A stretch of DNA of 64,000 nt from positions 744,001 through 808,000 of the forward strand of contig OZ004598.1 of NCBI GenBank assembly GCA_963924555.1, in the 5' to 3' direction. The notes beneath the pieces were generated by a model, which had not been told where the DNA came from, did not search any database, and worked only from the letters and a program-made list of their open reading frames with translations. Each line of letters opens with the position of its first letter. Within the stretch, counting starts at the first letter, position 1. The position numbers and the translations under genes were made by a program. Of the stretch, positions 19,601 to 63,714 are shown one piece after another. The stretch is from Crambe crambe (Eukaryota > Porifera > Demospongiae > Poecilosclerida > Crambeidae).

Positions 19601-22600
19601 ATTCCCCTTGGGAACCAGAGTCCAAGACAAGCTATCCTCACTGATAGCTGTGGACTCTGACCCCGATGAGGTGGATGGGATTTCTGGAGTGGATTTGATG
19701 GGGTGGGCGGTAATGAGAGGTGGAGCTAGTGCTGCTGGGGGTGGCGGAGGGCGAGTGGGGGGTGTGGTGAGCGAGGTGCTGTCTGTGTTATTGTGACTAC
19801 TGGAGTCTGACGTGCTAGTGGTGGTGCCATGGGTACTGGCCACACCCACTCCATTCACTGTAATACAGTCATCTATGCAATTCAGTCAGTCAATGTATAC
19901 ATAGAACTATTGGGGAGGCCCCTGTAATTACATGTATGCTATATGAATCACATTAGAGACTCAGAGGTGTCCTGATTAAAGAGGTGTCCTGATTAAAGAG
20001 GTCTCCTGATTAGATAGGTGGAACTTACATCGAGGTTTTTAACTACCATAACTATGGGTGATTTTCTCCCGTACCTTGAGAGGGAGTGTGGTTGCTGCTG
20101 GTGGTACCTGATGTGAAGGGTGAGGTGGTGGAAGAGGTGGTGTGGGGAGAGGACAGAGAAGCTGGGTGGTGTTGGGGGAGGGTCAGCAGGTGTTCCAGGG
20201 TCTCATCAATGAGGGGGTGGAGGGAAGGGTCACAGTATAGGCGGAGTTGGGATAGGAACTCTACACCACCGATATCAACCAGAGTGCACGAAGCTGCTTC
20301 ATGCTGCATGCATACGCATCAATACATGCAGGCTTGAAACACACTCAAACTTAAAGCATTCACCTTGCCCCTTGATCATTCACTATAACTGCTATAACTT
20401 TCAACAGAGAGCTGATTACCCACTCTCTATGCTGGTGTTTGAAATTTGAAATTTGGTTAAGAATTGAGAAATAGTGATTGATCAAGGGGAAGGTGAATGC
20501 TAAGAGACTTTAATTATGGTCACTGCAATTTTTATAGTAATGGCACTAGTTAGTGATGGACAGAGCCTGTCACTAGACACAATGATCAATCTCACTTGAG
20601 AACCCAACACGACCAAATAAATCTCCAAATGGTCTGTCATTAAGAAATACGTATCAGTCAGTGTCTATTCATCCTCATGGACTTAACTTTTATAGTGATT
20701 GTTGTATTGGAGGGTGGAGAGGGGTGGAGTTATTATAACACATAATCATGATACCCTCTCTCACTACAATTACACCACTAGCTACTTACAAGCAAAAATA
20801 AGCAAACAACACACGAAAAGCAAAAGCTACAGTAATCAAACTATCACAGCACTGAAGTTGAATATGATAGCAATAAAAGCTAGCACAACTGAAAAGGTGT
20901 ACCCTGGGCTGCTAATAGGAATACTGATACCTAAAAACGAGGGACAAAAATCGAATTCGTTTCTTTTTTCAATCTTCTGTAGAGATCTTGCATAATATCT
21001 ATCTTCAGGAGATATACCAGATGCATAATTCGTAAGTTCAACATGTAAATTATCTAAATTTTCATATTCACTTGCTTCTGCTTCTTCTGAGGAACAAGGG
21101 CATTTTTCATACCATTCTTCAAGTTTATTATTCCAGAAATCATCCTTTATTTTGACATTTTGATATATCTCGAGTAAAGCATTATAATAATCACTGTGAG
21201 CCTTATTACATAAAACTGCCATTAGATAAGGCAAGAAAAAGGCAAAGAAATCGAAAGTTATATTCAGAGCAGTATAAATTAGGTCAAATATATTTTTACT
21301 TGACCTTTCATACAGTGGTCGTATGATATGAATGAAATCCAATATCAGTAATAATAAATACACCAGATATTGCACCATAAACCAAGCTTCCAAAACATTG
21401 CATATCACTTGTACTTTCTCACCAGCACGTGCATAAATACAAGATATTCTAATACGTCTTCTTTCCAACTCTAAATCAATATCATCATCAGTAACAAGTC
21501 TAAATTCGTCCATTTTTAGTGCCGCCTTGCTTAGTGACTTCAACGGATCTTTCCAATACTTTCTTAAAAAACCGAACAACACTGCAACAATTATACGAAT
21601 GATACATGGAATAATTAAGGAGATACCAATCAGAGTTGCATAACCGATTGCCAAATGTTCACACATAATCGGATTTTGGAGTGTGGAATTTTGTGTACAA
21701 AACTTTGATACAGTGTAGTATTTCTTATCTCGCATGTATCCAATAAATGATATCTGCACTGATAACCACATCATTAATAAGTACACTGCAACCGACAGTA
21801 TTTCAACACAGTATCTTCCTAAGAATCGCATACATTTTGTACGGAACCACTTACTCAGTTTTAGTGGGTCACATTGACAATGGAGTGATGTGTATATCAT
21901 GTTCCAGTCTAAGTAATACGCGGCACAACAAATGAAAATAAGAAGCTCGCTACCTTGAAGGAGTGTTATACAACTGTATATAGCATTTTCCAGTACTGCA
22001 TATGTGCTATTCAAAGAGTCATTGCATTCACCTCGAATTATCCATAACTCCCGAGGAATATCAGTAGAAAATAGCGACAGATATGGGGAGATTCCAAGCA
22101 CTCCAATTATGCATAATGAACATAGTTTCTTGCCACCTATAATATTAATATTGTGCACACTTGAACTGTATGTCCACAATGCTAAGTAAATATGGTAGCT
22201 AACATATACATCATTCAAGTCCATGCATGGTAAACCAACTAGCTACCCATAACCATAGCTATACTTACTCAATGACATTTTCCCTTGAACACTTCAGACT
22301 GAATACTGCAATGTGAAGTGTCATGCTGATTGTATGATGATGCCTTATGAGTAGCTACCAATCATAGTCTTATGGCATGCGTAGTTAGTGAATTTGTGAT
22401 CTCACTCTTTCATTTTCCTCTATATAGTCACTATAGTACTCAATGTGTGTGGGTACAGTTAACTAACTGCAGTATATAAAGCTTCCTGACAAGTAGCTAC
22501 TAGTTATATCGCATCATATAAGCATGCAGTTATATTGCATGATCATTATTGACTGTCTATGAGATATATTACGGCGGTTTCCAGGAGGTCCACATACATT

Positions 22601-25600
22601 GTAATTAAGTGCTGTAAATCTGGAAATTTTTGTTATTAGAAGTCACCTTAACCCTAGTCAGAAATTTAGCGATTTTCTATTATCAGGATTTCAAGGCATT
22701 AATATTACTATGATTCCAACACACACTACCTATTGATACTAAGCACCATTCAAGCTCTTTATGTTTTTCAAGCAGGAACAATATCAGTTTGAACTTTGAA
22801 CTGTACATGCTTAGGGTAGTTCAAATTAAATAGGCAGACGTATGGAGAAGTGGCCAACAAATTGTATACAGTGAAGCCTCACCTGTATCCAGGGATAACC
22901 CTTCTATGAAGAACACTTAGCTAGTTATTTAATTGATTATTGACTTCCATGCAGAGACCACCTCCCTATTTTTTGTGGCCCAGAGGTGATCAGTGTAGGC
23001 GGGTTTCACTGTACACCTATAGTTTATGCACTATCCACTGTTATTATAACAGTACACAGGAATGTTTGGTATCCACACACTTTACTCAGCTACAGGGTTT
23101 TTCAGAAATTGTTGTGATAGAGGTCCAGGCCTATCACTACTCTGCTACTACTTCCAAATAAGGAATGTAAAGTTCATTTTTGTGGTCATGTTCATAAAAG
23201 CTAATTATAAGCATATCAAGCTGTAACAATTCAACAAGAAAATTGTAAATATGAATTCATTTGAACTAGCTATACCTATCAGCACAGCCAATATAAAGTA
23301 ATGGATGCCATAAACACACAATATTCTACATACTAAAATTTTTAGTACCCAACGATAAACATAACTATATTGGGTGTTAGCTAGAACCATCCAGCAGAGT
23401 ATGGTTAGATATGTGACCTGAAATATAGGTATGGTAGATGTGACCTATATGAATATTATAGGCATGGTAGACACAGTGCTGAGATATGTGACACACTCTT
23501 TTATGTAGAGATGGCAGGTCAGATAATAGCTATACTCTTTTTTTTCCCTTCTCTTCTACCTCAACTATATAGATTCTCAAAAGACTACACTGGGATTGCT
23601 ACACCTACAGAAGACAGAATATTCAAAAAAAAAAAAATCAAAAAAAAATCAAAAAAATCAGTGATTCCTAAAAATTGAAGTAGCTATCAGGTAGGAATCA
23701 TAACGAAATTCAAAGGTGACTAAGCTAGCTAATGAAAAAATTTCATGGCTACATAGTGAAATGGGTGAAGTCCAGCAAGTAGCCGATATATTGAATAATA
23801 TTTGTTGCTGTAGTTTAGAAGTAGCATGCTAATGAATCTGTAAGTGCTGAAGAGTGACTTGAAATATGCTCCCTTACCATACCATCTGTTCAAGTGCTAT
23901 CTAGAGGTAAGTTTCTACTTTGCAAATCAGTGACATGTGCATGGAACACTAGCTCGTCATTTTCTGCCATATTGAAGCCTGTACATGTGTACAGGGGGCA
24001 TGGCCACTATGGCCTGGTCAACTGGCACCTAGGATGCTGGTCACTCCTCAGGACTGTGTTGCACTGCAGATAAGGTCCCTCAGAACATTAGCAGATAGAA
24101 ATGTGTTTTAACCCTGAAATTTAGTTCAAGGGTGGATTATCTTGACTGCACTTATCTATGAATTTTTGCAAAGAAAAAGGATGGAAACAAGTGAGCTGCA
24201 ATTTATTCTGTAAGGATGGCCCCTAAATCTAGCTGGACTCAGTATGTACTATGACTGCAGCATCATATTAAGCCAAGCCCACCTATTTTGGGGCCATCCC
24301 TACATGAGATTTTTTGCAGCTCATGAATATATATGTACCATAGACACAGTGCTGAGATATGTGACCCATGAATATAGACCTAATGCCGAGATATGCAACC
24401 TATAAATATAGGAGATATGTGACCCATGAATGGTAGACCTAATGCCGAGATATGCAACCTATAAATATAGGTATGGTAGACCCATGCAGTGCTGAGATAT
24501 GTGACCTATGAATAGAAAAGTGATGGGTAGACCCAGTTCTGAGATATGTAACCTGTGAATATAGATAATGGTAGACACTGACCTATGGCTATATGGGTCT
24601 CATGAGTCATAGGGATATTGCACTCTCTGATAATACACATTATAGTGGACTTTTTTTTTTTTTGTAAATAATTATTATGAAAATAGTATAAACTGTCAAA
24701 AGCTATCACACTTATAACAACTGCCACATAGCTAGCTATTAACATGTGTAATCATTTTGGATAAAACTAAATACAACAGCAATAAGAGTTAGTATAAGAG
24801 TATAAGTATAACTGGGGCTGCTAATAGGGATGGTAATACCAAAAATATTAGGGCAAAAATCAAAATTATCTTTCTTTTCAATTTTTTTCCACAAAGATCT
24901 TATATAATATTCACTAATAGAGTCTTCCACTTGCACTTGATTATATTCCTCACAGCAACAAAATTTTCGACAAAAAGCTACAAATTCCTTACAGCAGTCT
25001 TTTCCACATTTGTAGCAACAAATTTTTCGACAAAAAGCTACAAATTCCTCACAGCAGTCTTCTTCACATTTGTATGTGCCATTTTGATATACCTCAAGTA
25101 ATGCTTCAAAATAATCATTATGAGCATTATTACATATAACTGCCATTATATAAGGTGAGAGAAATGACAATAAATCAAAAAATATATACAATATAGTGTG
25201 CACTCGGTCGTGCACATTAGATTTATGAGAATACAACGGTCCTATGATATGTATCAAATCAGTCATCAGTAATACCGAGTAGATGAAAAATTGCAGCATG
25301 AACCAAGCTTCTAGAACATTGTATATCACTCGTACTTTCTTACCAATACTTCGATATTCACGTAGTAAATCTTTACACCTTGTTTTTAACACTGAATTAA
25401 TTCTATCATCACTAACAATGCTGAGGTCGTATGGTTCCTTCTGGCTTAGTTTTTTCAATGAGTTTTTCCAATTTATGTTTGCATAACCCAGTAGCATTAT
25501 AGCAATTACACGAACCACACCCGGAACATAAATGGCAAATGCAACCACAACAGCATGTGCTATTGCTAATTGCTCATACTTATTTGTGCCATTCTGCAGG

Positions 25601-27378
25601 TCACAAAAATTTGTAGCATTATATTTATCAATGTCTCCATAATATCCATTTATTGATATGAACACTCCTAGTGTAACAACTGTTGCCATAAACATAAACA
25701 ACCCACAACATAATATAAAACAGCTGCAAGTACATTCGCAATTACAAGATGTCCCTGGTGCAGGATTCATAGACTGACCTGTACCAGGTGTGGATCTCTG
25801 ATTTGTACCAGAATGATCTGCATCAGATTGCAAAGCCTCACAAGTCGCAACCAGGGGTGTGGCTTGCGAGACTACAGATTGCACAGGTGTGGACCTTGTG
25901 ACAGAATTCTTAGATCTCATATAATAGTAAAAAATAGGGAAAGTAAAAACTAAAAGCTCGATAATTTGCAGAAAATTAATAATACCGTATAATATACTTT
26001 CTAACAGTTCATTACTTGTATTATCAGACTTCCTGCACTCACTTTCAATTATCCAATAATCTTTTAAAATATCTATGATAAAGTGTCCAACGTGTGGTAG
26101 GATCCCAAGGAACATCCCAAGGAACCAAAGTAGAAACAACCCGCATGGATATAAACATATCTTGCACTTATTTTGAGACATTCTGTATACAACAAGCCTC
26201 ACACGTATAATTGGGCCTGAACGAACCACACACTGTAGCGGAGTCTCTATTTATAACATCATTTCTCTGCGCGCGACGATCATCTGGTAACTTACATCGC
26301 GCATGCGCAAACCGTGCATGCGAGCGCGTGGCGCTTTGCTTTCTCTTTGACATTTCTGCCTCCCTTTAATAGCTAGAGTTTCTAAGAAGGTTATCCAGTA
26401 TATCTATGGCTACTGCTTCAAGGAATTGGTATAAACAAGAGTCCCGTGAGAGTGAAGAAATGAATATCCAAGAGTCCGCTTCCGTGCAAAGTAAATCCTG
26501 TCAGGACACCACACTCCAGCTAGGCCAGGCAGGTTGCTATACTAATATAAATAGCTTTTGCACATGCACGTGGTTCGACTGGACGACATTTCACATGCAC
26601 AACATAACAGACCACAACACAGTATTACATGCACACAAAATACCACACCCATGCAGAGCACATTGATCTTCTTCTCATAAAACCATTGCCTTCAGCATCA
26701 GTCCATTCAATATGCAGAAATATGCACATACACATCAAATTATCAACATCCGACCACATTGATCAGGCTTGCCCCACCTCGTAATTGGGGTGAGTCCCAC
26801 ACTAGCCTCATTCCCAGGTATGAGGCCTGCCCCACACTAGCTAGTTGTGTGTGCATATATATCAAGGGCCAACTGCATACCAAATTATATGACTACGTAG
26901 GCTGTCTGGGCCCTCTGACTATGTAACTGAGAGAGCTGACTGGGCCCTCTGACTATGTACCCAAGAGCACTGACTGGGCCCTCTGACTACATACCTGAGA
27001 GAGCTGAGCCCTCTGACTACGTACCTGAGAGAGCTGACTGGGCCCTCTGACTATGTACCCAAGAGCACTGACTGAACCCACCTGAGAGAGCTGACTGAGT
27101 AGAGTGAGCACTTGAGATTCACAGGCCCACTCCTCAAAGTTGAACCACTCCAGCAAGTGGGCGAGGAAGTCCCTCTCGTTAGCCAGGTCTGACAAGCTCA
27201 GCAAACCATTTCTGATTTTGAAGACTATGCTCCTAAGGCTTCTGCTACGAATGTCCAGCAGAGAGTGATCTGATAGTGGTGTTGATGGAGAAGATGGGAG
27301 GGGAGGAGGAGGGAGGAGGGAGGAGGGGGGATAAGATGAGGAGAAAGGGGGAGGAGATGAAGAAAGGGGAACAGCCAT
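4678..27378 (-). CDS. RTTN: Rotatin (armadillo-like centriole/basal-body protein)
   Basis: Rotatin is a large armadillo-like protein needed for centriole assembly and ciliary basal bodies. The start ATG is at 27376-27378. Exon 1 encodes a Pro/Ser-rich leader and then IRSRSLRSIVFKIRNGLL and LLEWFNFEEW, the N-terminal signature of rotatin. Exon 2 gives LVDIGGVEFLSQLRLYC. A later exon gives FPWLELSANDEHIL and another DVLFQDFPPELFLQRP, both matching the vertebrate protein. Model exons: 27378-27082, 20303-20075, 19857-19462, 19350-19279, 19134-19020, 18728-18659, 18464-18097, 17818-17600, 17527-17399, 17320-17121, 16648-16540, 16345-16034, 15814-15681, 15298-15199, 14973-14702, 10380-10248, 9840-9424, 8884-8664, 8416-8213, 7864-7755, 7347-7105, 6781-6378, 5962-5670, 5400-5205, 5005-4913, 4810-4678. 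That is about 1,820 codons, against about 2,226 in human. Phases agree at most junctions. The junctions around 19279/19134 and the frame of 16648-16540 are unsure, and an exon may be missing in 10.4-14.7 kb. Confidence 0.88.
5963..6377. other. RTTN intron, nothing further seen
   Basis: Intron between the exons at 6781-6378 and 5962-5670. AT-rich, with poly-T runs. I see no RNA gene or repeat family member. Confidence 0.4.
7436..7518 (+). pseudogene. tRNA-Thr (GGT) relic
   Basis: It matches the tRNA-Thr at 7631-7704 through the acceptor, D and anticodon arms (GGCTCTG start, anticodon loop CTGGTAA), but on the opposite strand. The T arm is ruined: the GGTTCAAAT loop no longer sits between pairing stems and extra bases are present. 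The 3' acceptor half CAGGGCC survives. It is a dead tRNA copy inside an RTTN intron. Confidence 0.75.
7586..7615. repeat. (GA)n microsatellite
   Basis: A run of alternating G and A, about 30 bases, between the two tRNA-like sequences in an RTTN intron. Confidence 0.9.
7631..7704 (-). tRNA. tRNA-Thr (anticodon AGT)
   Basis: Read on the minus strand it folds as a full cloverleaf. The acceptor stem is GGCTCTG with CAGGGCC (one G-U pair). The D-arm region contains TTAGTTGGTTAA. The anticodon stem CCTGT/ACAGG encloses the loop CTAGTAA, giving anticodon AGT (Thr, ACU). The T arm ACTGG/CCGGT encloses TTCGAAT. Discriminator is T. An internal A-box-like and a B-box (GGTTCGAATCC) promoter are intact. 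It lies inside an RTTN intron on the same strand as RTTN. Confidence 0.93.
8070..8172. repeat. Short minisatellite in RTTN intron
   Basis: Irregular repeats of about 20 bp built on GAGAATACTGAAAGTATACT. They lie between the exons at 8416-8213 and 7864-7755. Confidence 0.75.
8450..8572. repeat. Minisatellite, ~33 bp unit
   Basis: About four copies of a unit with TTACTGATTCTAGTATACT followed by GGGCAGTG. They sit just upstream of the acceptor of the RTTN exon at 8416-8213. Confidence 0.85.
8990..9310. repeat. Tandem repeat, ~110 bp unit, three copies
   Basis: Three copies of a unit containing CAGAGGTCAAAATCAATGGT and CACTATTGGGACATAGCCAA, with changes between copies. They fill the RTTN intron between the exons at 9840-9424 and 8884-8664. 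Confidence 0.85.
9930..10262. repeat. Minisatellite made from an RTTN splice donor
   Basis: Four to five copies of a unit of about 60-80 bp, each with ACCTGTTTTTAAGTGGTAG, which is the reverse of the true end of the RTTN exon at 10248 (CCACTTAAAAACAG then GTACAC). The array therefore repeats the last exon bases and the 5' splice site downstream of the real one. Confidence 0.85.
10393..11095. repeat. Three tandem copies of a ~235 bp element
   Basis: Copies start near 10402, 10633 and 10865, each with GAGAGTGCGGTAGCACTCTC, then TAAGTAGGGATGGC, and ending in GTTCTTTTTCTTTAT. The first two are nearly identical and the third is older. A diverged single copy lies near 23490-23650, and its reversed end (CATCCCTACTTAGAGAGTAC) at 55707. 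The open frame across two copies is a repeat artefact. Confidence 0.9.
11096..11707. repeat. Repeat block with TAA microsatellite, first of three copies
   Basis: Starts with (TAA)n, then AAGATCGACGTACCGACTTA and GCGGCACCTAGAGGCTGATC. The same block recurs near 11950-12450 and in shortened form at 13446-13606. It is non-coding and lies in the long RTTN intron 10381-14701. Confidence 0.85.
11708..11949. repeat. Foldback (hairpin) element
   Basis: Two arms of about 105 bp pair almost perfectly around a loop near 11812-11846. The arms contain AAGGTTAAGTAGGGATAGCT and CTGCAGTCGTATGAAAACAA. No coding capacity. It belongs to the group of hairpins here that carry the GTAGGGATG motif near each end. 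Confidence 0.9.
12500..13445. repeat. Repeat unit with 430-bp hairpin, copy 1
   Basis: The unit starts with AAGAAAAAGGATAGAAACAA and ends in a long hairpin (13012-13445), whose arms of about 205 bp meet near 13213-13230 at TCACTCCC..GGGAGTGA. The unit is repeated almost without change at 13606-14541, so a ~1.1 kb tandem duplication has occurred. Confidence 0.9.
13606..14541. repeat. Repeat unit with 430-bp hairpin, copy 2
   Basis: A near-identical copy of 12500-13445, including the hairpin (14108-14541). The short centre between the arms is inverted relative to copy 1 (CATGATCAAGGGCC against GGCCCTTGATCATG), which shows flipping or gene conversion between the arms. Confidence 0.88.
16690..17080. 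repeat. Minisatellite, ~32 bp unit, ~11 copies
   Basis: Copies of CACCATAGTATACTAGAATG followed by TTCATTAA.. lie in the RTTN intron between the exons at 17320-17121 and 16648-16540. Peptide-like open frames through it are artefacts. Confidence 0.92.
17852..17993. mobile_element. MITE, same family as the one at 43558
   Basis: Imperfect terminal inverted repeats begin TACCATATAGCGCAATATTT on the left. On the right, read in reverse, they begin TACCGTATAACACAAAATTT. The interior has TTTCGTGGATTTCATGGTTT. The TACCGTATA end and TTCGTGG interior match the element in the INTS2 exon. It lies in an RTTN intron. Confidence 0.75.
20836..22278 (-). CDS. 7-TM membrane family member B (nested in RTTN intron 1)
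   Basis: I recognise no named family. The best model joins a 10-nt coding microexon (22269-22278, ATGTCATTGA, then GTAAGT) to 22136-20836, giving about 437 residues starting MSLSGKKLC. A start at 22222-22224 without splicing is possible but adds a leader not found in paralogues. About seven hydrophobic segments are visible. The TM1-TM2 loop has GECNDSLNSTY (sequons NDS, NST) and the TM3-TM4 loop FCTQNSTLQN (NST). The TM4-TM5 loop is long and basic (KDPLKSLSKAALK, ERRRIR). The C-terminal signature runs ARSLQKIEKRNEFDFCP, SFLGISIPISSP and a last TM ending near the C-terminus. It sits inside RTTN intron 1, same strand. Likely a plasma-membrane receptor or channel subunit, by topology only. Confidence 0.8.
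24165..24330. repeat. Hairpin MITE relic
   Basis: Contains AAGAAAAAGGATGGAAACAA, AAATCTAGCTGGACT, GACTGCAGCATC and, in reverse, GGCCATCCCTACATGAGA. These are the blocks of the hairpin family in the 11.7-14.5 kb array, but the arms have decayed. Confidence 0.65.
24335..24600. repeat. Degenerate minisatellite downstream of gene C
   Basis: Irregular copies of GAGATATGTGACC(C/T)ATGAAT and ATAGGTATGGTAGACCCA. A related short array lies downstream of gene F (56205-56330), so the arrays probably travelled with the genes when they duplicated. Confidence 0.7.
24739..26181 (-). CDS. 7-TM membrane family member C
   Basis: Uninterrupted frame of about 480 residues from ATG at 26179-26181 (MSQNKCKIC). 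An upstream extension begins only with GTG and is unlikely. TM1 is about FLLWFLGMFLGILPHVGHF. The TM1-TM2 loop has the sequon NTS and the TM3-TM4 loop has NAT and NGT. The TM2-TM3 loop carries an extra Ser/Thr-rich stretch. The signature EAWFMLQFFIYSVLLMTDLI marks TM5 and YIMAVICNNAHNDYFEALLE follows TM6. The TM6-TM7 loop holds a tandem duplication of a Cys-rich unit (CCEEFVAFCRK then CCKEFVAFCRK). The C-terminus has SLWKKIEKKDNFDFCP, FGITIPISSP, then TM7. It lies inside RTTN intron 1 on the same strand. Function unknown; receptor-like by topology. Confidence 0.85.
   Translation of the reverse strand: MSQNKCKICLYPCGLFLLWFLGMFLGILPHVGHFIIDILKDYWIIESECRKSDNTSNELLESILYGIINFLQIIELLVFTFPIFYYYMRSKNSVTRSTPVQSVVSQATPLVATCEALQSDADHSGTNQRSTPGTGQSMNPAPGTSCNCECTCSCFILCCGLFMFMATVVTLGVFISINGYYGDIDKYNATNFCDLQNGTNKYEQLAIAHAVVVAFAIYVPGVVRVIAIMLLGYANINWKNSLKKLSQKEPYDLSIVSDDRINSVLKTRCKDLLREYRSIGKKVRVIYNVLEAWFMLQFFIYSVLLMTDLIHIIGPLYSHKSNVHDRVHTILYIFFDLLSFLSPYIMAVICNNAHNDYFEALLEVYQNGTYKCEEDCCEEFVAFCRKICCYKCGKDCCKEFVAFCRKFCCCEEYNQVQVEDSISEYYIRSLWKKIEKKDNFDFCPNIFGITIPISSPSYTYTLILTLIAVVFSFIQNDYTC
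26262..26345. promoter_or_regulatory. CpG-rich 5' flank of gene C
   Basis: A dense cluster of CG dinucleotides (CGCGCGACGATC, GCGCATGCGC twice-related, GCGAGCGCGTGGCGC) just upstream of gene C in otherwise AT-rich DNA. The GCGCATGCGC palindrome resembles an NRF-1 type site. It may serve gene C and possibly a transcript to the right. Inference from composition only. Confidence 0.45.
26406..26540 (+). other. Possible first exon of an unknown gene
   Basis: ATG at 26406 opens an acidic reading frame (MATASRNWYKQESRESEEMN) divergent from gene C, with possible donors near 26490 (AAAGTAAAT). I found no partner exon and no homology, so this could be chance. Confidence 0.2.
26880..27081. repeat. Minisatellite made from the RTTN exon 1 splice donor
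   Basis: About five copies of CTGAGAGAGCTGACTG with TACGTA or TATGTA beside it, spaced by GGGCCCTCTGACTA. In reverse, each reads as the end of RTTN exon 1 (CAGCTCTCTCAG) followed by GT. The frame stays open through the array to 26953, so use of an outer donor would add in-frame QLSQ-containing units. The same array flanks the dead exon 1 copy at 35925-36090, so it predates that duplication. Confidence 0.85.
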
Positions 27379-27500
27379 CGGACTTTTGTGCACTAACTTG
27401 TCTTGAGGAGCAAGTCTTTGATGGATACCTCCTCTGCCTTTATCTTGTCCATTGTGGACTCGAATTTTCCCGCCAAATTGCCGGGAGGTTAAGGTTCACA
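27379..27500. promoter_or_regulatory. Shared RTTN/INTS2 head-to-head promoter, left copy
   Basis: Lies between the RTTN start (27378) and the INTS2-like copy on the other strand. It holds a strong E2F-type site, TTTTCCCGCCAAA (27465-27477). The same site is conserved in the right copy (36815-36827) while the surroundings have changed. E2F sites of this form drive S-phase genes, which would suit a centriole gene. The regulatory role is inferred. Confidence 0.55.
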
Positions 27501-30444: not shown

Positions 30445-31612
30445 TTATTTCATTAAACCTGATGTAACACTAAAGAGAGATATTATAAGAGCATATGTAT
30501 AAATGGGGCTGTTAATAGGGATGCTAGCACCAAAAAGATTGGGACGAAAATCCAAGTTATCTTTCTTTTCGATCTTCTTCCACAAGGATCTTGCATAATA
30601 TTTACTGTGTTGACCATCCACAGGTTCATCATCTAATGAATCATAATCACCCGTTTCATTTTTTTGGCAACAACACAAATTTTTACGACATGCTTTAAAG
30701 TAATCCTCTTCTTCACATTTATAGTGACCGTTTTGATATAACTCAAGTAATGCTTCATAGTAATCATTATGAGCTTCATTACACTTAACTGCCATCAAAT
30801 AAGGCAAGAGAAATGTCACCAAGTCCAGAATTACATACAATATAGTACGCCATCTGTCATAATCATTGTTTGGTTTTTGATTCTGTACTGGACTTAAGAC
30901 ATGTATCAAATCAGTCGTCAGTTTTACTGAGTAGACTATAAATTGCAGCATGAACCAAGATTCTAGAGCTTTGTATATCACTTGTACTTTCTTACCAATA
31001 ATTCGATAACCATATGACAATTTTTGACATCTCTCTTCCAGCTCTGAATCAATTTTATCGTCAGTAACATCGATGTATAGCTTCTCACTTAATTTTCTCA
31101 ATGAGTCTTTCAAATATTTTCTTGCTAAATCCAATAGCACTATAACAAGTATACGAACTACACATGGAACGATGATGGTAAGTTCACTCATGACAGCGTG
31201 AGTTATTATGAATCTATCATATGCACTTGTGCCAAGCAGACCACAATAATCTGAAGCATTATAATCTTTATCTCGACCATATCCCATTCCTGATATGACC
31301 ACTCCTACTGTAAAGGGCAGAAGGATATATACTACCACAAACAGCATTTGTATGGAACAACAATGACAGAACAGAATGTTTTCCAGCTTATACTCCTTAC
31401 ATATGGTACTCCAGTAATAGCCAACATATAGAGTAAAAACTAACAGCTCAATACCTTGCAGAAGACCAACAAAACTATATAGAACACTTTCTAACGATTT
31501 TTTATTTTCTTCATCACATTTACCTTGATATAATACCCAAGTGTGTCACGTGTAGTAGGAATCCAATAGATAAAGCAACGACTTGGTAGTTAACAACATT
31601 TTGTTACATGAC
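30445..31612 (-). pseudogene. 7-TM membrane family member D, broken at the N-terminus
   Basis: 300 codons are open from TM3 to the stop (30445-31347) and the frame extends upstream to about 31525. The protein is very close to E and G: NASDYC in the TM3-TM4 loop, PYLMAVKCNEAHNDYYEALL, SLWKKIEKKDNLDFRP, SIPINSPIYTY. Against gene E, a 5-bp deletion near 31530 (GGTATTATATCAAGG for GGTATTGATATATATCAAGG) and a further loss near 31570 break TM1 from the rest. The start region (ATGTCATGTAACAAAATG, near 31612) is still visible. One key loop residue differs too (EAWF is ESWF). A downstream start would drop TM1-TM2, so I call it a pseudogene. Confidence 0.75.
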
Positions 31613-33047: not shown

Positions 33048-34313
33048 TTATCTTGTTAAACCAGATATAACACCAAAAAGAGATAGTATAAGAGTACACG
33101 TGTAAATGGGACTGCTAATAGGGATGCTAGCACCAAAAAGATTGGGACGAAAATCTAAGTCATCTTTCTTTTCGATCTTCTTCCACAAGGATCTTACATA
33201 ATATTTACTGTGTTGACCATCCACAGGTTCATCATCTAATGAATCATAATCACCCGTTTCATTTTTTTGGCAACAACACAAATTTTTACGACATGCTTTA
33301 AAGTAATCCTCTTCTTCACATTTATATTGACCATTTTGATATAACTCAAGTAATGCTTTATAATAATCACTATGAACTTCATTACATTTAACTGCCATCA
33401 AATAAGGCAAGAGAAATGTTGCCAAGTCAAAAATTAGATACAATATAGTACGCCATCTGTCATAATCATTGTTGGGTTTATGAGAATTCACTGGTCGTAA
33501 GACGTGTATCAAATCAGTCGTCAGTAATACTGAGTAGACTATAAATTGCAGCATGAACCAAGCTTCTAGAGCTTTGTATATCACTTGTACTTTCTTACCA
33601 ATAATTCGATAACCATATGACAATTTTTGACATCTCGCTTCCAGCTCTGAATCAATTTCATCAGTAACATGGCTGTATAGCTTCTCACTTAATTTTTTCA
33701 ATGAATCTTTGAAATGTTTTCTTGCTAAACCCAATAGCACTATAACAATTATACGAACTACACATGGAACGATGATGGTAAGTTCACTCATGACAGCGTG
33801 AGTTATTATAAATCTATCATATGCACTTGTGACAAGCAGACCACAATAATTTGAAGCATTATAGTCTTTGTCTCGACCATATCCCATTCCTGATATGACC
33901 ACTCCTACTGTAAAGGGCAGAAGGATATATACTACTACAAACAGCGTTGGTATGGAACAACAATGACAGAATGTTTCACAGAATGTTTTATAGGTGAAAG
34001 ATTGCAGCTTATATTCCCTACATATGGTTCTCCAGTAATAGCCAACATATAGAGTAAAAACTAACAGCTCAATACCTTGCAGAAGATTAACAAAACCATA
34101 TAGAACATTTTCTAGCAATTCCTTATTTTCTTCATCACATTTACCTTGATATATATCAATACCCAAGTGTGTCACGTGTAGTAGGAATCCAATAGCTCCA
34201 AATAGAGAAAGCAACAACTTGGTAGTTAACAACTTGTTGCATGACATTATGACTCCAGTCGTTGAAAGCAAATTAGTCCTTTCCACATTATGTGGAAGCT
34301 GTGAGGAATTCAA
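33048..34313 (-). CDS. 7-TM membrane family member E
   Basis: Uninterrupted frame of 421 residues from MNSSQLPHN. A second ATG at MSCNKLLTTK aligns with the start of other members and may be the real one. Hydrophobic segments: residues ~30-52, 66-92, 122-145, 163-195, 243-268, 281-300 and the last ~20. The TM3-TM4 loop has the sequon NAS next to a Cys. The TM2-TM3 loop (KLQSFTYKTFCETFCHCC) and TM6-TM7 loop (KACRKNLCCCQK) are Cys-rich and basic, as cytoplasmic segments would be. TM5 carries EAWFMLQFIVYSVLLTTDLI. The C-terminus is SLWKKIEKKDDLDFRP, FGASIPISSP and TM7. Near twin of G (62446). Function unknown; topology suggests N-in, C-out. Confidence 0.87.
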   Translation of the reverse strand: MNSSQLPHNVERTNLLSTTGVIMSCNKLLTTKLLLSLFGAIGFLLHVTHLGIDIYQGKCDEENKELLENVLYGFVNLLQGIELLVFTLYVGYYWRTICREYKLQSFTYKTFCETFCHCCSIPTLFVVVYILLPFTVGVVISGMGYGRDKDYNASNYCGLLVTSAYDRFIITHAVMSELTIIVPCVVRIIVIVLLGLARKHFKDSLKKLSEKLYSHVTDEIDSELEARCQKLSYGYRIIGKKVQVIYKALEAWFMLQFIVYSVLLTTDLIHVLRPVNSHKPNNDYDRWRTILYLIFDLATFLLPYLMAVKCNEVHSDYYKALLELYQNGQYKCEEEDYFKACRKNLCCCQKNETGDYDSLDDEPVDGQHSKYYVRSLWKKIEKKDDLDFRPNLFGASIPISSPIYTCTLILSLFGVISGLTR

Positions 34314-34321
34314 TCAATACG

Positions 34322-35920: not shown

Positions 35921-35924
35921 CTAT

Positions 35925-51333: not shown

Positions 51334-52783
51334 CTAGACACACCAGCAGCCAAATGCAAATGCGAGAACAGCTGTAATTAATGCACTTACAGAAATTCCA
51401 ATTTTTGTTTTGGTATATAGTTCCCTACCAGCTGGTTCTAGGTCTGTGTCAGTATGGTTAAAATGACAGATTAATGGCTGGTTATTGTCTTCAAGCATAT
51501 ACAACAGAAAGCTAAATGTTATAAAGATGAAAATAAGATAAAACACAATGTTTTGTAAATGAACTGTACACAGATTGTATTTGGACTTTTTGATGGACTC
51601 TGCTCTTTCTTCCTGACCTTTGTACCATATTTTCATTGTACACAGATTGCAATAGGACTCTGTTCTTTCTTCAAGACCTTTGTACCATATTTTCATTGTA
51701 CTAAAGAGTAGCCATAAAATGCCAAATAGGAATATAAGTGTATAAAAGGTGACACTTACAGATCGATTATTCGATCCACAAAAGGTGCCTACTTCATCAT
51801 CACTTGCATGTTCGATAGCACTGTACAAAACATCAAATTTAACAATAATAAATTATCTACAAACAAATCCTTAATTATATTCTGTGGGTGGCAACAATCA
51901 GAAATATACTTAAAAAATATAATCAAGAACCATAATAGCTAGCAATAATATAACAAAAGCTGGAAAAAATATAATAATAGCTAGAAATAATATAAATAAT
52001 GCAACTGATATAATAACTTGAACAACATATACAACAGCTGATACAATACAACCAAGAATATACCTTAGACAAGGACAATTACAACTCAGGAGGGCACCTT
52101 TTTATATAAAAAAATAGCAGAGGGCTTTGAAGTGACCCCATACAGTAGTGGTATCATATTCTGAAGAGTCTTTTAACTTAGATGATACCTTACTGATCAT
52201 ATCTGAAAATTCTGGGAGAAATTGAGGGATGACAAAAAAAACTAATGTTGAGAAGCCTAATATTCTGATACTTTTTTTGACAAGTTTCATTACAATTGAG
52301 CTCTTCTCCATAATTATCAGTGATGTTTCTGATATTATCACCATAAAAATAACATATTATTCCCAAACCTTCTGTTATTATAATAAATAATTCATATGCA
52401 TTTGCCAATTTCCTTTCAGGCATATCTTTTGAACTTTCACCTGTTGAACTTTCACCTATTAATTCTCGTTCATCTGTTGAACTTTCACCTGTTAATTCTT
52501 GTTCATTTGTTGAACTTTCACCTGTTGATTCTCCTGAATTTGGGGGCTCAGAGCATAATTTTATTATTGTAAAGATAATCATAAAGATAACCACCACCAC
52601 AAGTAGAAGAATAAGAACACTGAAAGTAACCATAACCCCTATTGCAGTAAATCGATCAGAAGGGTGAAAGAATAAACTTGCCCTTATTATGGAGTTAATA
52701 ATGTCAGCAAAAAAAATGTAGACAAATATAATTGTTTCCAAGTGATCGTGACTTCGTGTATCTGGAAGTAACAACTTTTTCAC
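51334..52783 (-). CDS. Small multi-pass membrane protein, two exons
   Basis: Unrecognised family. Exon 1 starts MKKLLLPDTRSHDHLE (52783) and has TM segments IIFVYIFFADIINSII, FSVLILLLVVVVIFMIIFTI and AYELFIIITEGLGIICYFYG. Between TM2 and TM3 is an imperfect repeat of GESST(N/D)E(Q/R)ELTGES. At a run of eight T near 52235 the frame slips: with seven T it continues FVIPQFLPEFSDMISKVSS. A GT donor near 52140 would join to exon 2 at about 51819 (AIEHASDDEVGTFCGSNNRS), which adds TMs FYTLIFLFGILWLLF, IVFYLIFIFITFSFLLYML and SALITAVLAFAFGCWC. Exon 2 has an internal duplication of TMKIWYKG.EER.ES. The homopolymer slip may be an assembly error. Confidence 0.55.
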
Positions 52784-53685
52784 ATAGTTAGATAGGTCTA
52801 TGTGTGATCTGTTTGTGTGAAAAGTACACTCAAGTGTAAAAGTACACTCTTCACTCAGTGAGCAGCTATAAACTAGTTATTAATGCATACCCTCTTATGC
52901 TGATAATTCCCTAGTGGGTCATGATGACTGTCATATGGATGGGTGTGATGAGAACTCCTTAAGGACATAATGCTCGTTTGAAAATTTCACAATGGCACAT
53001 ATAAAATGACCAGTCTCTTCTCTGACAAAAGTGATGTCTTACCTCAAAATATATACCATAGCTGTAGCTGGTCCCGTGACTCATTATGGTACTCATGAAT
53101 ATGTTCATGAATATCAGCATTTATGCTGATATTGATGTCTGCATATAGACTACCAGGATTCCAGAAAGCAAATTCTCAGACTCTGTGTCTAGGATCCTAT
53201 TATAGGACTCTGTGTTCAGTCAGTAGACCAAATGTCTGGAGGATCCTTTAAACATACCATCCAACATGTATACTTTGTATCCAGAATGTTTCAACAACTT
53301 CTTCAATCTCCTCTTATAAATAAATTTAAACTAGACCTTTCTGTGCATGAAATAATACTCTGTTCAAAAACCAGTTCCCATGGCAGGTTCAGTGGAAGAG
53401 ATTCATTGACTCAATAGATGCTGCCATAGTGTGTGTTAGTATACATATCCGTCGATTAGCTGAGTCTGTAGAATTATATGAATCCAGGTTCAGGAGAGAT
53501 CAAATGCAGTACTCTTTCGATGGGGGGAAATGTCTTCTTGGGGTCTTGGATTTGAAGTAATTTTGTGAAAATGTTTTTGCATCACATTAAGTTGGTATTC
53601 TCGTAAAATTAACATTGTATTAACTTCCAGTCACTGGCCATTTTGACTGCAGAGGACACTGTTTAGCCATTTTTATTAAGATGAA
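52784..53685. other. Spacer, no gene seen
   Basis: Upstream region of the gene at 51334-52783. A short open frame at 53232 has no protein-like character. No repeat recognised. Confidence 0.4.
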
Positions 53686-53689
53686 GGAA

Positions 53690-56498: not shown

Positions 56499-57837
56499 TC
56501 AACATGTATACTTATTTTGGATAAAACTAAATACAACAGCAATAAGAGATATTATGAAAGAATAAGTATAACTGGGGCTGCTAATAGGGATGCTAACACC
56601 AAAAATTTGAGGACAAAAATCAAAGTCTTTTTTCTTTTTCCACAAAGATCTTGCACGGCATTTAGCAGCATATTTATGATCATGTTCTTCCAATAGAGGC
56701 TCAGACTCCGGTTTAGGTTTAAAAGAACAAAACATATTTTTACAACATGTACTTAATTTCTTATAGCAACACTCTTTTTTATATTTCCATTCGCCACTTT
56801 GATACAACTCAAATAATTCTTTATAATAATCATCATGAGCTTTATTGCATGAAGCTGCCACCAAATAAGGTACAAGAAATGCCATTAAGTCAAACAATAC
56901 ATACAATAATTATAGTATGCACTTCATCATATATATTGGATTTATGAGTATATGATGGTCCTATGATATGTATCAAATCAGTTGTCAGTAATACCGAGTA
57001 CAACATAAATTGCAGCAGGAACCAAGCTTCAAGAGCATTGTATATCACTCGTACTTGTTCTCCAATACATTGGTAATGATATGATAATTTTTCATAGCTC
57101 GTTTCCAGCTTGTCTTTAATGTTGCTTATCTCATCTAATGAGTCATTCCAACATTTTTTTGCATAACCCAACAGCACTAGAACAGCTATGCGAACTACAC
57201 CCGGAATAAAGATGGTAAATGCAGTCACAACAGCGTGTGCTATTGCTAATCCTTTATACCTACTAGTGCCATTCGGAAGCTTACAAGAATCTGTAGTATT
57301 ATAAAAAGCTTCGTCTCGATAATATCCAAGTGCTGATGTGGCCACTCCTATTATAAGAATTACTGCCATGAACAGGCACAGCAGAAAATAATAAGTTTTT
57401 TGAATCTTACAGGTTTCAGATTGGTTAGACTGCTGATTTGTAGCAGGTTCCCGATTGGTTAAACTGCTGGTTAATAGCTTATCTTGTGAGCCAGACTCTT
57501 CAAGGCTTGTGAGACTTCTATATGGCTCTAACGGATGATCTGTAACAGATTTCCACAATCGTTGATGAAGAGTGGTAGATTGCTCAGACCATTCAATATA
57601 TATATATTTCTTATATATGGTATTCCAGTGATAGCCAACACAGAAAATAAACACGATAAGCTCAATAATTTGCAGAACATTAATTAAACCATATAGGACA
57701 CTTTCTAATATTTCATTACTTGAATCATCAGACTTGCATTCACCATGAATTATCCAAAGCTGCCATAAAATATCAATGACAAAGTGTCCAATGTGTAGTG
57801 GGATTCCAAAAATTGCAGCACACCATAATACACTCAT
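56499..57837 (-). pseudogene. 7-TM membrane family member F, frameshifted
   Basis: Starts MSVLWCAAIFGIPLHIGHF (57837) and is most like gene C. Loops carry GECKSDDSSN after TM1 and NTT and NGT sequons before TM4. TM5 reads EAWFLLQFMLYSVLLTTDLI. At about 56900, CATACTATAATTATTGTATG replaces the expected CATACTATATTGTATG, a 4-bp insertion that ends the frame at VCIV. The rest (YVLFDLMAFLVPYLVAASCN, DFCPQIFGVSIPISSP, TM7) is open in the other frame to 56499. A single lesion, so either a young pseudogene or a sequence error. An extra polar insert (EPYRSLTSLEESGSQDK) lies in the TM2-TM3 loop. Confidence 0.82.
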
Positions 57838-58099
57838 AGTACAGAAAGTATTTAAATCTATTAAATGGACATGTACAAATTAGAGTAGTAACATAAAAAA
57901 ATCTGAAGTAGCTAGCTACACACCTTTACAACACATTATGCCTTGCTCAGCAGCCAGTCATTAGCTACTTAGCCTGAACCGCACCGGGCCGTATACTGTT
58001 CGTTGCTCTATATGCTCGCACTTTTAAAGGAGCTTGAAGTGGGTGTGGCTAAAATTAAAAACATGCATCTCTGATGTGTTAGATTTTTCTTTACTACCA
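57838..58099. other. 5' flank of gene F
   Basis: Short upstream region. Contains GAACCGCACCGGGCCG, a GC-rich patch that may belong to the gene F promoter. Nothing else seen. Confidence 0.35.
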
Positions 58100-58775: not shown

Positions 58776-58817
58776 AATACAAAATCAGATCTTCTAAACC
58801 TCATAATGCATCACAGG

Positions 58818-58915: not shown

Positions 58916-59097
58916 TGTAATAATTTTGTGGTGAGATCATGTGATGATTATGAGGTGCTAATACAGCTATGTGCTATGGATGTAGATGAAGTTGTGTTTA
59001 CTTTGCAGTATTGATATTGATGATTGACATTGATGATAACTGGTTTGAGATAACATGGTATATGAGCTATGTGCTATGGATGTAGATGAAGTAGTGT

Positions 59098-59945
59098 TTA
59101 CTTTGCAGTATTGATATTGATGGTAACTGAACCACACTGGTTAAAGGTATATGAACCAGGAAGGGAAGCATTTCGAGACTGGTGAACTGAAGTTGTGTTG
59201 CTAGCAATTGGCATCAAGGTATTCTCAGTACACTGCTTTTTTGTTGTGTTGCTTAATATATCTGACACAATTTCTTTTTGATCAGCAGATGTGTGTTTGT
59301 AGGATCGAATACCCTCTAGACTCCGATGTCCAGTCCGTTCCATCACAAGCTGCTCATCAATACCGGATGAGTAGAGGCGAGTTGCTGCTGTGGCCCGCAA
59401 AGAGTGATTTGTCTTTAATCCCTCAATTCCACAAGCTTCACACATTTTGGACACAGCTTTAGCCAGCTTGTTTCTACCGACTGGTACCATAGAGTACCAG
59501 CAATCATTTGTGGGGTTCTTCAAGGGCCCAAGATAGAAGGCTCCATCAGGGCAATCAGGAGGGCAAAGAGACATGTACAACTTGAACAAACGGACAAAGC
59601 ACCTTGCTGGATTTTCAGTGTTTGAGTGATGTTGAACTACTTTAGGCTTGTGCTTTTGCCCCTTCAGTCCTCCAGGTCGATTTTTGGAGATATCCTCTGT
59701 GTAGAGGAGATAAGGCCTCTCGCCCTGCCTTTCAACTACCTGAATTTGACAAGGGTTGTGTCGCAAGTTCCTATGTTCGTCCCCAGAGCGAAGTGCAAAG
59801 TACAATCCATTCATGTAAATGATTGTGTTTTCCCACAGTAGTCCCTCCTCCTCTGTGGTGAATGGCTCTGCTTATTTGTGCACTGAACCAACACCCTTTG
59901 ATTGTAGACACTTCATTTCAGCATCAAATGAGGACTGACTACTCT
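59098..59945 (-). pseudogene. Crypton-type tyrosine recombinase (catalytic domain)
   Basis: The open part from MNGLYFALRSGDEHRNL (59814) to 59098 encodes a tyrosine-recombinase catalytic domain: the first Arg in LRSGDEHRNL, the H-x-x-R box in NHSLRATAATRLYSSG, the second His in ERTGHRSLEGIRSYKH and the nucleophile Tyr in RSYKH. This set is typical of Crypton elements and of host genes derived from them (the DUF3504/QRICH1/ZMYM type). Just upstream the sequence KGVGSVHK, stop, AEPFTTEEEGLLWE shows an in-frame TAA at about 59871 where Lys or Gln is expected. The N-terminal half is otherwise missing. No LTRs or TIRs seen. Confidence 0.8.
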
Positions 59946-59999
59946 TTTGCCTGTATTGTAACAATGTGTGATGTATTTATTTCTAAGTTTTACAAGTCT

Positions 60000-60440
60000 G
60001 TGTGAATAGAAATGATTCAGAAAATGGCACTTGTTCCATGGCACACATTATCTTCTTGTGCCTGCTCAGCCAGGCGAATATTTGCTCACAAGCCATGGTA
60101 GCTCGTATGCTTATTTTTGTTGGCAAGCTGGGTCCCGGTGATTTCTAATGTGGAGATCATCAATTACCTGTAAAATAATAATAAATGTTACATTATTATT
60201 ATTATGTGTGATGAATAATAGCTAGCTCTATAGCTATTGGTACCTTGGTGATATCAGACCAAATATACTTGAGATCTCCAGGTAATGGCAGAGGCTTTTT
60301 AACAACTTTGAGGTTATCCAAATGGAAAATGTTGTCGTATGCAAGGATGATATTCTGCCGTATACTTCTTCCCTGACTTCTAAAAGCAGCTACCAGCCAT
60401 GTTAAGACAAGTAAGAAGACTTGTGCCGGACCTTCAGACC
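60000..60440 (-). pseudogene. Transposase relic (KDZ-like, uncertain)
   Basis: Minus-strand exon about 60436-60245 reads SEGPAQVFLLVLTWLVAAFR, RQNIILAYDNIFHLDNLKVV and KKPLPLPGDLKYIWSDITK, ending in GTACC. The next piece (about 60171-60010) reads VIDDLHIRNHRDPACQQK, then after a frame break MACEQIFAWLSRHKKIMCAM. The HIRNH.DP.C and EQ.F.WLSR.KKI blocks are familiar from the C-terminal part of large metazoan transposases (KDZ type from memory). Frame breaks show it is dead. Confidence 0.5.
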
Positions 60441-60923
60441 TATGATTAATGACAAGTTAGTCTTTTAATAAACTGGATGCCTCGCCATGTAGTAAACTCG
60501 TTATCATTTGATTATCACTGATATATTTTTGCAGGTATATAAATAATTGGTTTTCTTGCTTACTTTAAGAGTGTTTCCATACTCATTAGTCACAATGACA
60601 GCAAGGCCATTCTTCGTTCAATCTTCTTTAATATCTACAAGGATGGACAAAATGTGATCAAGGCTTCTAGTATTATGATATTGATGAGGTACATGAGATG
60701 GAATTGAAATTTAGGGGGAAAGTACATTTTTGAAGGGGATGGTTTACTGTTTCTCAATGATCAGGTAGCTAGATAGTCTAGTGACTCTAGTACACAATAA
60801 TAATTCAGTATGAGTATTGTGCTTACCTTTATGAATTAATGAGTCCGAAAAATTGACATTGTTGTCGATGTCATCATCAACACCTATAATAGACAATTAG
60901 AGCGCTCAGCCTTAACGATGCGT
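60441..60923. other. Spacer, no gene seen
   Basis: Intergenic sequence between the transposase relic and the start of the segmental duplicate. No recognisable feature. Confidence 0.35.
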
Positions 60924-62300
60924 AGATGAGTGTTTAAATCGAGCTGATTTTTGGAAAAAGGCTTTATTCCAGAAAGAAGGGCAACATTCCAGCTCCATAG
61001 TGCTCCTATCCCTCAACCCAGTAATCAAAATTTCTATAAAAGTTACAATCACTAAATAATTATTGTGCACACTCGAGTTGCATGTATGTCTACAATGCAG
61101 AAATGCTGACAAACTATGGTACAGTGACATTTTCCTCAAACAGTTACTGCAATGTGAAGTATACTTGTCAGGAAACAGTTAGTTGGCTGTACCCACATGT
61201 AGCTACACACATTGAGTACTATAGGAGAGGAGGAAAAAGAGTGAGATCACAACTTCACTAGCTACTACACATGAGGACTATGATTAGTAAATGAATGTAC
61301 TCACATATTATAATACAGTATATCCCATGCTCATCGTGGACTAAGATCATTTCTTCATGGTTTAGTTCCAGCCCCTGGGATTAAAATATAGTCCAGCCAT
61401 CAAAAAACACAACATCTGAAACTAAGCATGCCTGAGAAGATGTCAACTATGCAAACTACAAATTTAATGTTAATGATAGTCACGACTAACTGCATATGTT
61501 TACTCGGGAATTCCCCTAGCTACTATTAGTGCTTCTGGAAGCCATACATTTCCCGAGTACAAAGTGTTTAATGATATTCATGACTAACTGCATACGTTTA
61601 CTCAGGAATTCCCCTAGCTACTATATATGCCACACCCACAATGTAACAGTTATGGATGCACACCATTATTTGATGGTACATGCAACAACTGCATGAAATT
61701 CTAAATTAGTAACTACATAACACTTTTATAGTTAGTGACTATTATGATGGTTTTTAGTACAACTTTTGAAATGAATACACATATGATAAATCAACATTGA
61801 AAATTTCCCAGTCTACGGTATGTACCCATTTTAGGTTATCTGAGTTGAAAATTGGAACTCAGATAACCTAAAATGGGTTGTTTTTACACATTTGTTTTTA
61901 CAATGTGCAGTCAAGGGATATTTGGTGTCATGTCACCATGTGATGTATTACATGTGTGGCAGTCCCAGCCAGGGGGACACTATTCATTCTGGAGCTAGCA
62001 GATTTTGTTAGTAGCAGCTATAGCTATACAAATCACATTGCATGCATGGCCTCCTCCCTGGCAGAATGAGTAGCCACAAGATCGACGTGTCAATTGCACT
62101 AGTCTCGCTAGCCAGACTCCTTTTCCCCTCACTATCTCATCTTTGCATATACACTTACTTGCACGTGCAAGTAAGTGTATGTGCAGTGGAAAAGGAGTCT
62201 GGCTAACAAGATCGACGTGTCAATTGCACTACTATTATACTCCACCTGGGGCAAATAAAAGCCCACATGGTATTAACACTGGTAGTAAAAATACTGCATG
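60924..62300. repeat. Segmental duplication, copy 2 (pairs with 28490-30020 and 32.5-33.0 kb)
   Basis: Matches 28497 onward (GTGTTTAAATCGAGCTGATT), then from about 61785 matches 32520 onward, including the small hairpin around AAAATTGG. It runs into gene G as 32.5 kb runs into gene E. CAGTGACATTTTCC at 61120 is the reversed B-type start microexon, now mutated. Confidence 0.85.
62078..62231. mobile_element. 106-bp hairpin insertion with ~24-bp flanking direct repeats
   Basis: A hairpin with arms GCTAGCCAGACTCCTTTTCC and its reverse (62102-62207) lies between two copies of AAGATCGACGTGTCAATTGC-ACTA. The homologous site near 32787 has the repeat once and no hairpin, so the insertion and the duplication happened together after the segmental copy was made. 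Confidence 0.8.
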
Positions 62301-62445
62301 GCAAATTTACTATTTTATGATCAGCCCTACATTGATTTTTTTTGATGCTTAATACTTTTTAATAGTAGATCAGAATCCATTAAACAATTGCATTGAAACA
62401 CAAAAATTCATGAAAAAAATAGGGATGGATGATATCACCAAATAA

Positions 62446-63714
62446 TTATTTTGTTAAACCAGATATAACACCAAAAAGAGATAGTATAAGAGTACACGTG
62501 TAAATGGGGCTGCTGATGGGGATGCTAGCACCAAAAAGATTGGGACGAAAATCCAAGTGATCTTTCTTTTCGATCTTCTTCCACAAGGATCTTACATAAT
62601 ATTTACTGTGTTGACCATCCACAGGTTCATCGTCTAATGAATCATAATCATCCGTTTCATTTTTTTGGCAATAACATAAATTTTTACAACATGCTTTAAA
62701 GTAATCCTCTTCTTCACATTTATATCGACCATTTTGATATAACTCAAGTAATGCTTCATAGTAATCATTATGAGCTTCATTACACTTAACTGCCATCAAA
62801 TAAGGCAAGAGAAATGTCGCTAAATCAAAACTTAGATACAATATAGTACGCCATTTGTCATAATCATTATTGGGTTTTTGAGAATTCACTGGTCGTAAGA
62901 CGTGTATCAAATCAGTCGTCAGTAATACTGAGTAGACTATAAATTGCAGCATGAACCAAGCTTCTAGAGCTTTGTATATTACTCGTACTTTCTTACCAAT
63001 AATTCGATAACCATATGATAATTTTTGACATCTTGCTTCCAGCTCTGAATCAATTTTATCATCAGTAACATGGCTGTATGGGTTCTCACTTAATTTTCTC
63101 AATGAGTCTTTCAAATGTTTTCTTGCTAAACCCAATAGCATGATAACAAGTATACGAACTACACATGGAATGATGATGGTAAGTTCAGTCATGATGGCGT
63201 GCATTGTTATAAAGAAATCATATGTACTTGTGCCACGCAGACCACAATAATTTGAAGCATTATAGTCTTTGTCTCGACCATATCCCATTCCTGATATGGC
63301 CGTTCCTACTGTAAGGGGCAGAAGGCTATATACTACCACAAACAGCGTTTGTATGGAACAAAAATGACAGAATGTTTCACAGAATGTTTTATAGGTGAAA
63401 GATTGCAGCTTATATTCCCTACATATGGTTCTCCAGTAATAGCCAACATACAGAGTAAAAACTAACAGCTCAATACCTTGCAGAAGACCAACAAAACTAT
63501 ATAGAACATTTTCTAGCAATTCCTTATTTTCTTCATCACATTTACCTTGATATATATCAATACCCAAGTGTATCACGTGTAGTAGGAATCCAATACTTCC
63601 AAATAGAGAAAGCAACAACTTGGTAGTTAACAACTTGTTGCATGACATTATGACTCCAGTCGTTGAAAGCAAATTAGTCCTTTCCACATTATGTGGAAGC
63701 TGTGAGGAATTCAA
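62446..63714 (-). CDS. 7-TM membrane family member G
   Basis: Uninterrupted frame of 422 residues, near twin of gene E with the same start (MNSSQLPHN) and the same flanks. Differences cluster in TM3 and the TM3-TM4 loop (LPLTVGTAISGMGY, CGLRGTSTYDFF) and in TM4 (MHAIMTELTIIIPCVV). The TM6-TM7 loop is KACCKNLCYCQKNETDDYDS. The sequon NAS before TM4, EAWFMLQF in TM5, SLWKKIEKKDHLDFRP and FGASIPISSP before TM7 are all kept. The open frame after duplication implies selection or recent origin. Predicted N-terminus inside, C-terminus outside. Function unknown. Confidence 0.87.
   Translation of the reverse strand: MNSSQLPHNVERTNLLSTTGVIMSCNKLLTTKLLLSLFGSIGFLLHVIHLGIDIYQGKCDEENKELLENVLYSFVGLLQGIELLVFTLYVGYYWRTICREYKLQSFTYKTFCETFCHFCSIQTLFVVVYSLLPLTVGTAISGMGYGRDKDYNASNYCGLRGTSTYDFFITMHAIMTELTIIIPCVVRILVIMLLGLARKHLKDSLRKLSENPYSHVTDDKIDSELEARCQKLSYGYRIIGKKVRVIYKALEAWFMLQFIVYSVLLTTDLIHVLRPVNSQKPNNDYDKWRTILYLSFDLATFLLPYLMAVKCNEAHNDYYEALLELYQNGRYKCEEEDYFKACCKNLCYCQKNETDDYDSLDDEPVDGQHSKYYVRSLWKKIEKKDHLDFRPNLFGASIPISSPIYTCTLILSLFGVISGLTK

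Follow-up and report, generated by a model that had tools for sequence, protein, structure and literature searches.

A clustered family of seven-helix membrane proteins with a likely N-in topology and a possible relationship to the insect gustatory and odorant receptor superfamily

The insect gustatory receptor BmGr9 and the odorant receptor Orco are tetrameric cation channels, in which helix 7 lines the pore and helices 4-6 form a cytoplasmic anchor. Gustatory receptor (Gr)-like proteins are attributed to protostomes, some deuterostomes, Cnidaria and Placozoa (Benton et al. 2020, PMC7746228), and to protostomes, cnidarians and placozoans in a 2024 review (PMC11526382), so far as the available portions of these papers go; in the same portions, the recognised non-bilaterian representatives are those of cnidarians and placozoans. 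The 2020 study, likewise as available in part, regards a motif in transmembrane helix 7 (TM7) as diagnostic but not definitive for the superfamily, and a phase-0 intron preceding TM7 as uninformative in intron-poor organisms. Sponges, Porifera and Amphimedon are mentioned in the main text of neither PMC7746228 nor PMC9998090 (Benton and Himmel 2023), the accessible portion of a 2014 survey of sponge G protein-coupled receptors (GPCRs; PMC4302439) mentions no gustatory or inverted receptors, and the titles and abstract openings among the listed Gr literature include no sponge Gr-like receptor, which leaves an earlier sponge report possible. The present analysis concerns a family of membrane proteins encoded at seven loci (A to G), all on the minus strand, in a 64-kb stretch of DNA (contig C21, 744001-808000; hereafter the window) from a 143-Mb genome in 119 contigs. 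These loci align as one family, with B, C, E and G intact and A, D and F broken, and they probably represent a divergent branch of the superfamily of seven-transmembrane ion channels (7TMICs) to which Gr and odorant receptor (Or) proteins belong, with an intracellular N-terminus and an extracellular C-terminus (N-in/C-out), a branch that is duplicating and decaying. An earlier note on this DNA had described seven minus-strand loci of common architecture, the positions of which are confirmed here, although the coordinate range it gave omitted locus A, which starts at position 99 and thus lies within the window.

A Kyte-Doolittle scan returned seven hydrophobic segments for all eight intact members of the window-type (alpha) subfamily, B, C, E and G among them, and in L018 of a second (beta) subfamily, and five to six segments, at the same threshold, in the four members of a third (gamma) subfamily. 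The stop-to-stop frames of B, C, E, G, the four other intact alpha paralogues and beta L018 comprise 391-503 residues, and 0-6 residues separate the last helix from the C-terminus, as the earlier note had indicated for both segment number and terminal helix. The N-glycosylation sequons that it reported in the loop between TM1 and TM2 (B and C) and in that between TM3 and TM4 (B, C, D, E, F and G) are also present. Across 20 aligned rows, loops 1 and 3 contain 2.2 and 3.0 sequons per 100 residues, respectively, compared to 0.3-0.7 in loops 2, 4, 5 and 6. In a non-redundant set of 11 members, obtained by omitting nine of the 20 rows as close copies or fragments, 21 sequons are located in the 965 residues of loops 1, 3 and 5 and 12 in the 2183 residues of loops 2, 4 and 6; shuffling produced a mean of 6.1 outer-loop sequons and reached 21 in one of 5000 shuffles, the members being paralogues and hence not independent. 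Furthermore, a cysteine occurs in loop 1 and in loop 3 in nine of the 11 members each, a pattern that a disulphide linking two of the outer loops would explain; loop 3 lacks cysteine in beta L018 and gamma L023, and their loop 1 cysteines lie off the aligned position.

An N-in/C-out topology is favoured by this concentration of sequons in loops 1 and 3, together with the cysteines of the same loops, and is to be regarded as supported, not proved; the loops that would then be internal (2, 4 and 6) are, by the residue totals given above, the longer ones. Lys and Arg are modestly more frequent in these putative inner loops (301 of 2183 residues) than in loops 1, 3 and 5 (94 of 965). Sequons are also found in the TM6-7 loop of C, D, E, G and A, which weighs against this orientation unless they are unused. 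Charge gives no guidance beside the helices: at distances of up to 12 residues from the helix cores, 79 Lys/Arg residues lie outside and 77 inside (11 rows), representing no bias. The positive-inside rule was consequently dropped as a decisive argument for topology, and the earlier assertion that sequons and charge together force the N-terminus inside is reduced to a preference indicated by sequons and cysteines. In a similar manner, the TM2-3, TM4-5 and TM6-7 loops had been described as basic and Cys-rich, which holds for the cysteines of loops 2 and 6 and for the basic character of the TM4-5 loop, but the latter is not Cys-rich.

The unbiased charge beside the helices and the sequons in the TM6-7 loop would suit a GPCR family (N-out, C-in) restricted to this lineage and diverged in sequence, much like the nematode serpentine receptors, as would the possession of seven helices and the tandem expansion. 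In addition, one of 11 members, L004 (C21:704k), exceeds the Pfam cut-off for 7TM_GPCR_Srd (PF10317) with 23.6 versus 22.8 bits, i.e., by 0.8 bits, the match (E 3.4e-5) covering residues 10-193 and the first four helices. E and G, which are close sisters of L004, show no Srd match at E values up to 1, and for this reason the L004 match was taken to be due to chance. Given these findings, and the sequon and cysteine patterns, a GPCR identity appears quite improbable.

The proposal that these proteins adopt an Or/Gr-like fold was evaluated using AlphaFold models of the protein encoded by E (P0002). For model 1, Or and Gr chains were the exclusive best matches, over the full length and with a clear gap, at a predicted local distance difference test (pLDDT) score of 54, and model 2 produced a weak match. 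Helices 4, 5 and 6 measure 48, 59 and 46 residues in one and 56, 61 and 63 residues in the other of these two low-confidence models, and both contain a short helix followed by a beta hairpin (pLDDT <50) and TM7, to be compared with the division of TM7 into 7a and 7b in the superfamily. The Gr/Or-like fold is supported by model 1, not proved. It may be argued that the family is instead a new inverted seven-helix family that has its own fold, such as a transporter, enzyme or adhesion protein, and that the Or/Gr match is what AlphaFold returns when a seven-helix bundle is weakly determined and its helices 4-6 are long. The low pLDDT and the weak second model leave room for this explanation, but it is rather unlikely, as the Or/Gr chains rank exclusively over the full length with a clear gap, and as the matched fold is not among the AlphaFold training structures.

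Sequence comparisons with known families gave no link to the Gr/Or superfamily. Neither 7tm_7 nor 7tm_6 was detected in the family proteins by hmmscan against Pfam; the TM7 motif of Gr proteins, (T/S)Yhhhhh(Q/K/E)(F/L/M), is present in none of 16 members, compared to 118 of 120 Gr43a-family control proteins; and full-length profile comparison with 16 Gr43a-family proteins yielded a score of 17.0, below those of reversed controls (21.6 and 23.3). One of the 16 members scanned for the motif, F, was supplied without its last helix, and the separate C-terminal piece of F also lacks the motif. Moreover, searches of the genome with the 7tm_7 and 7tm_6 profiles returned best E values of 2.9 and 3.9, respectively, located elsewhere and not credible, and the phase-0 intron just before the TM7 exon is absent, the intact alpha and gamma frames being open through TM7. 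The lone local match in the full-length Gr43a comparison lies where TM5 begins, at corresponding positions. When TM5-6 only was compared with Gr43a, scores of 16.7 (versus 12.3 and 12.2 for reversed controls) and 21.9 (versus 16.4 and 17.3) were obtained at the two settings used, with probabilities of 1-6%, well short of significance; these are not counted as evidence because the regions were chosen after the full-length comparison, and profiles of TM5-7 and of TM7 alone did not clearly beat their controls. The earlier suggestion of a Gr/Or-like inverted family is thus partly supported, by the likely topology and the fold match of model 1, whereas no sequence test reaches the superfamily.

Other candidate relatives were considered and rejected. 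PHTF1-2_N was not matched in the proteins, and its best hit in the genome (E 1.3) was located elsewhere and below the cut-off; hmmscan of the proteins against Pfam-A returned no match to the plant DUF3537 or to other inverted seven-helix families. Sequence searches of the PDB with family proteins gave no credible match, and one peptide pattern each, applied to viral and to bacterial/archaeal contigs, retrieved 6 and 16 stretches, respectively, with no confirmed relative among them. A protein search for relatives outside the window, run with an 11-member alignment, retrieved the same five proteins as a search with C, namely C, E, D, F and P0004, all being window-encoded with the exception of P0004. 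A Gr query of the same protein collection retrieved 128 Gr43a relatives, of which 120 were listed, and the collection is therefore taken to cover animals; relatives below approximately 35% identity would probably have been missed, as estimated from the word-matching rule.

If the relationship with the Gr/Or superfamily is accepted, the proteins of the several subfamilies would be seven-helix membrane proteins with an internal N-terminus and an external C-terminus and a fold like that of insect Gr and Or proteins, in which helices 4, 5 and 6 would be extended to form a cytoplasmic anchor and the protein would end with helix 7. By analogy with BmGr9 and Orco, four subunits may assemble into a tetramer with a pore lined by helix 7, and a small molecule binding the outer half of the helix bundle may open this cation pore; we infer the tetramer, the channel function and the chemical ligand from that analogy. 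The Cys-rich inner loop 6 might, speculatively, be lipid-anchored. The tandem cluster would grow and decay by duplication, as chemoreceptor families do.

Searches of the genome with C, B and two distant members, which give lower bounds, detected at least 13 alpha loci, 12 of them in the 676-808 kb segment of C21 and one on C16. Eight of these are intact (C21 696k, 704k and 707k, B, C, E, G and C16 2374k) and five are broken or fragmentary (676k, 698k, A, D and F). The beta subfamily comprises at least three loci (C1 6178k, C1 6185k and C21 3530k) and the gamma subfamily at least four (C16 3338-3347k), and a short collagen-like frame was observed by eye near a gamma gene. In a maximum-likelihood tree of 18 rows the alpha, beta and gamma subfamilies separate at 98-100% bootstrap, the tree program warning that long branches meet, and beta and gamma are the older subfamilies. 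Of note, L009 (C21:698550-699900) is broken in the assembly, while P0004, an intact protein in another public record, is nearly identical to this 698k copy, which would reflect either an allelic or an assembly difference.

That three of the seven window copies are broken, and that repeats are common in the window, might suggest that the loci are not genes but hydrophobic frames that arose by chance, or sequence derived from transposons. This is contradicted by the eight intact frames of 412-503 residues from stop to stop, by conservation across three subfamilies separated at the bootstrap values given above, and by the ratio of nonsynonymous to synonymous substitution rates (dN/dS), which ranges from 0.35 to 0.61 among seven recent pairs and from 0.23 to 0.61 among five older ones, these pairs overlapping and hence not being independent, and two of them using the stretches of the broken copies A and D that remain open. 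The family looks coding because dN/dS is below 1 in all 12 pairs, a non-genic origin is most improbable, and the pattern is that of coding genes duplicating and decaying.

Within the window, locus B (20836..22278, minus; frame 20836-22242) is an intact seven-helix gene for which two exons are predicted from splice signals: exon 1 (22269-22278; ATG TCA TTG A), followed by a GTAAGT donor, and exon 2 (20836-22136), preceded by TTATAG, with a candidate intron of 132 bases ahead of the main exon. The joined exons would encode MSLSGKKLC...NFSAVIV, the N-terminus of which resembles MSQNKC (C) and MSCNKL (E and G). Locus C (24739..26181, minus; frame open to 26250) is an intact single-exon gene if it starts at MSQNKCKIC, a start codon picked by likeness to E and G. 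The intact single-exon genes E (33048..34247, minus; frame 33048-34313) and G (62446..63648, minus; frame 62446-63714) both start from MSCNKLLTT, and are 91% identical. Among the broken copies, A (99..1473, minus) consists of the pieces 99-842 (TM5-TM7) and 1078-1473 (TM1 to the start of TM3), separated by stops in all three frames; D (30445..31545, minus) is interrupted by an in-frame stop immediately upstream of its frame and changes frame inside TM1; and F (56502..57879, minus) is broken near 56900, TM1-TM5 being encoded in 56890-57879 and TM6-TM7 in another frame (56502-56909).

A rotatin exon (RTTN_N, E 3e-16) is present at 26953-27495 (minus), and B and C would be located in a rotatin intron on the same strand if the subsequent rotatin exons are situated below 20 kb. 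Both this exon and the collagen-like frame near a gamma gene suggest that the host is an animal. Between F and G, a tyrosine-recombinase-like frame (DUF3504, Phage_integrase; 59098-59871, minus) perhaps marks a mobile element. A further multi-helix membrane protein is encoded in two frames (51334-51852 and 52190-52876, minus); its C-terminal part (residues ~154-221) has 14 other genomic matches in frames of 143-430 residues, mostly clustered (C8:8014-8025k, C13:3070-3092k and C16:6504-6528k), its N-terminal residues 11-60 match 37 short pieces across the genome, and it probably belongs to another unnamed and clustered family of membrane proteins, one piece of which is derived from a repeat. 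The window also contains a 231-base unit in three tandem copies (10402-11093; 96% matches), which overlaps an open frame (10306-10875), and a tRNA-Thr gene (AGT; 7631-7704, minus).

If the assignment to the Gr/Or superfamily is correct, it would extend that superfamily by a tandemly expanding family that has the same likely fold and no sequence signature, suggesting that the diagnostic TM7 motif is dispensable, and it would provide a concrete candidate set of chemoreceptor genes, open to expression and testing; if the host is a sponge, it would also be relevant to how an animal that lacks neurons senses chemicals. A more far-reaching idea, which we put forward tentatively and with somewhat more doubt than belief, is that a branch of the insect taste and smell superfamily that is invisible to sequence comparison has diversified through tandem duplication in an animal of an early-branching lineage (a sponge, according to the earlier note), perhaps one without neurons, producing a ligand-gated chemoreceptor repertoire that is found only by fold.

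When compared with nematode Srd serpentine receptors (PF10317), the family differs in its opposite likely topology, and the match of a single member to the first four helices is not shared by E and G. Compared to the insect gustatory receptors (BmGr9, DmGr43a and Gr64a; 7tm_7), it is without significant sequence similarity and without the TM7 motif, the TM6-7 loop of the alpha subfamily is long and Cys-rich, and the alpha and gamma frames have no intron before TM7; the same differences apply to the insect odorant receptors and Orco (7tm_6), for which nothing above chance was found in the genome. In general features the family resembles the gustatory receptor-like (GRL)/7TMIC proteins of non-insect animals and protists, with which it shares its length (the criterion being about 350-500 residues), its seven helices, its longer inner loops and, probably, an inner N-terminus, a likeness judged by the criteria listed in the available portions of PMC7746228 and PMC9998090.
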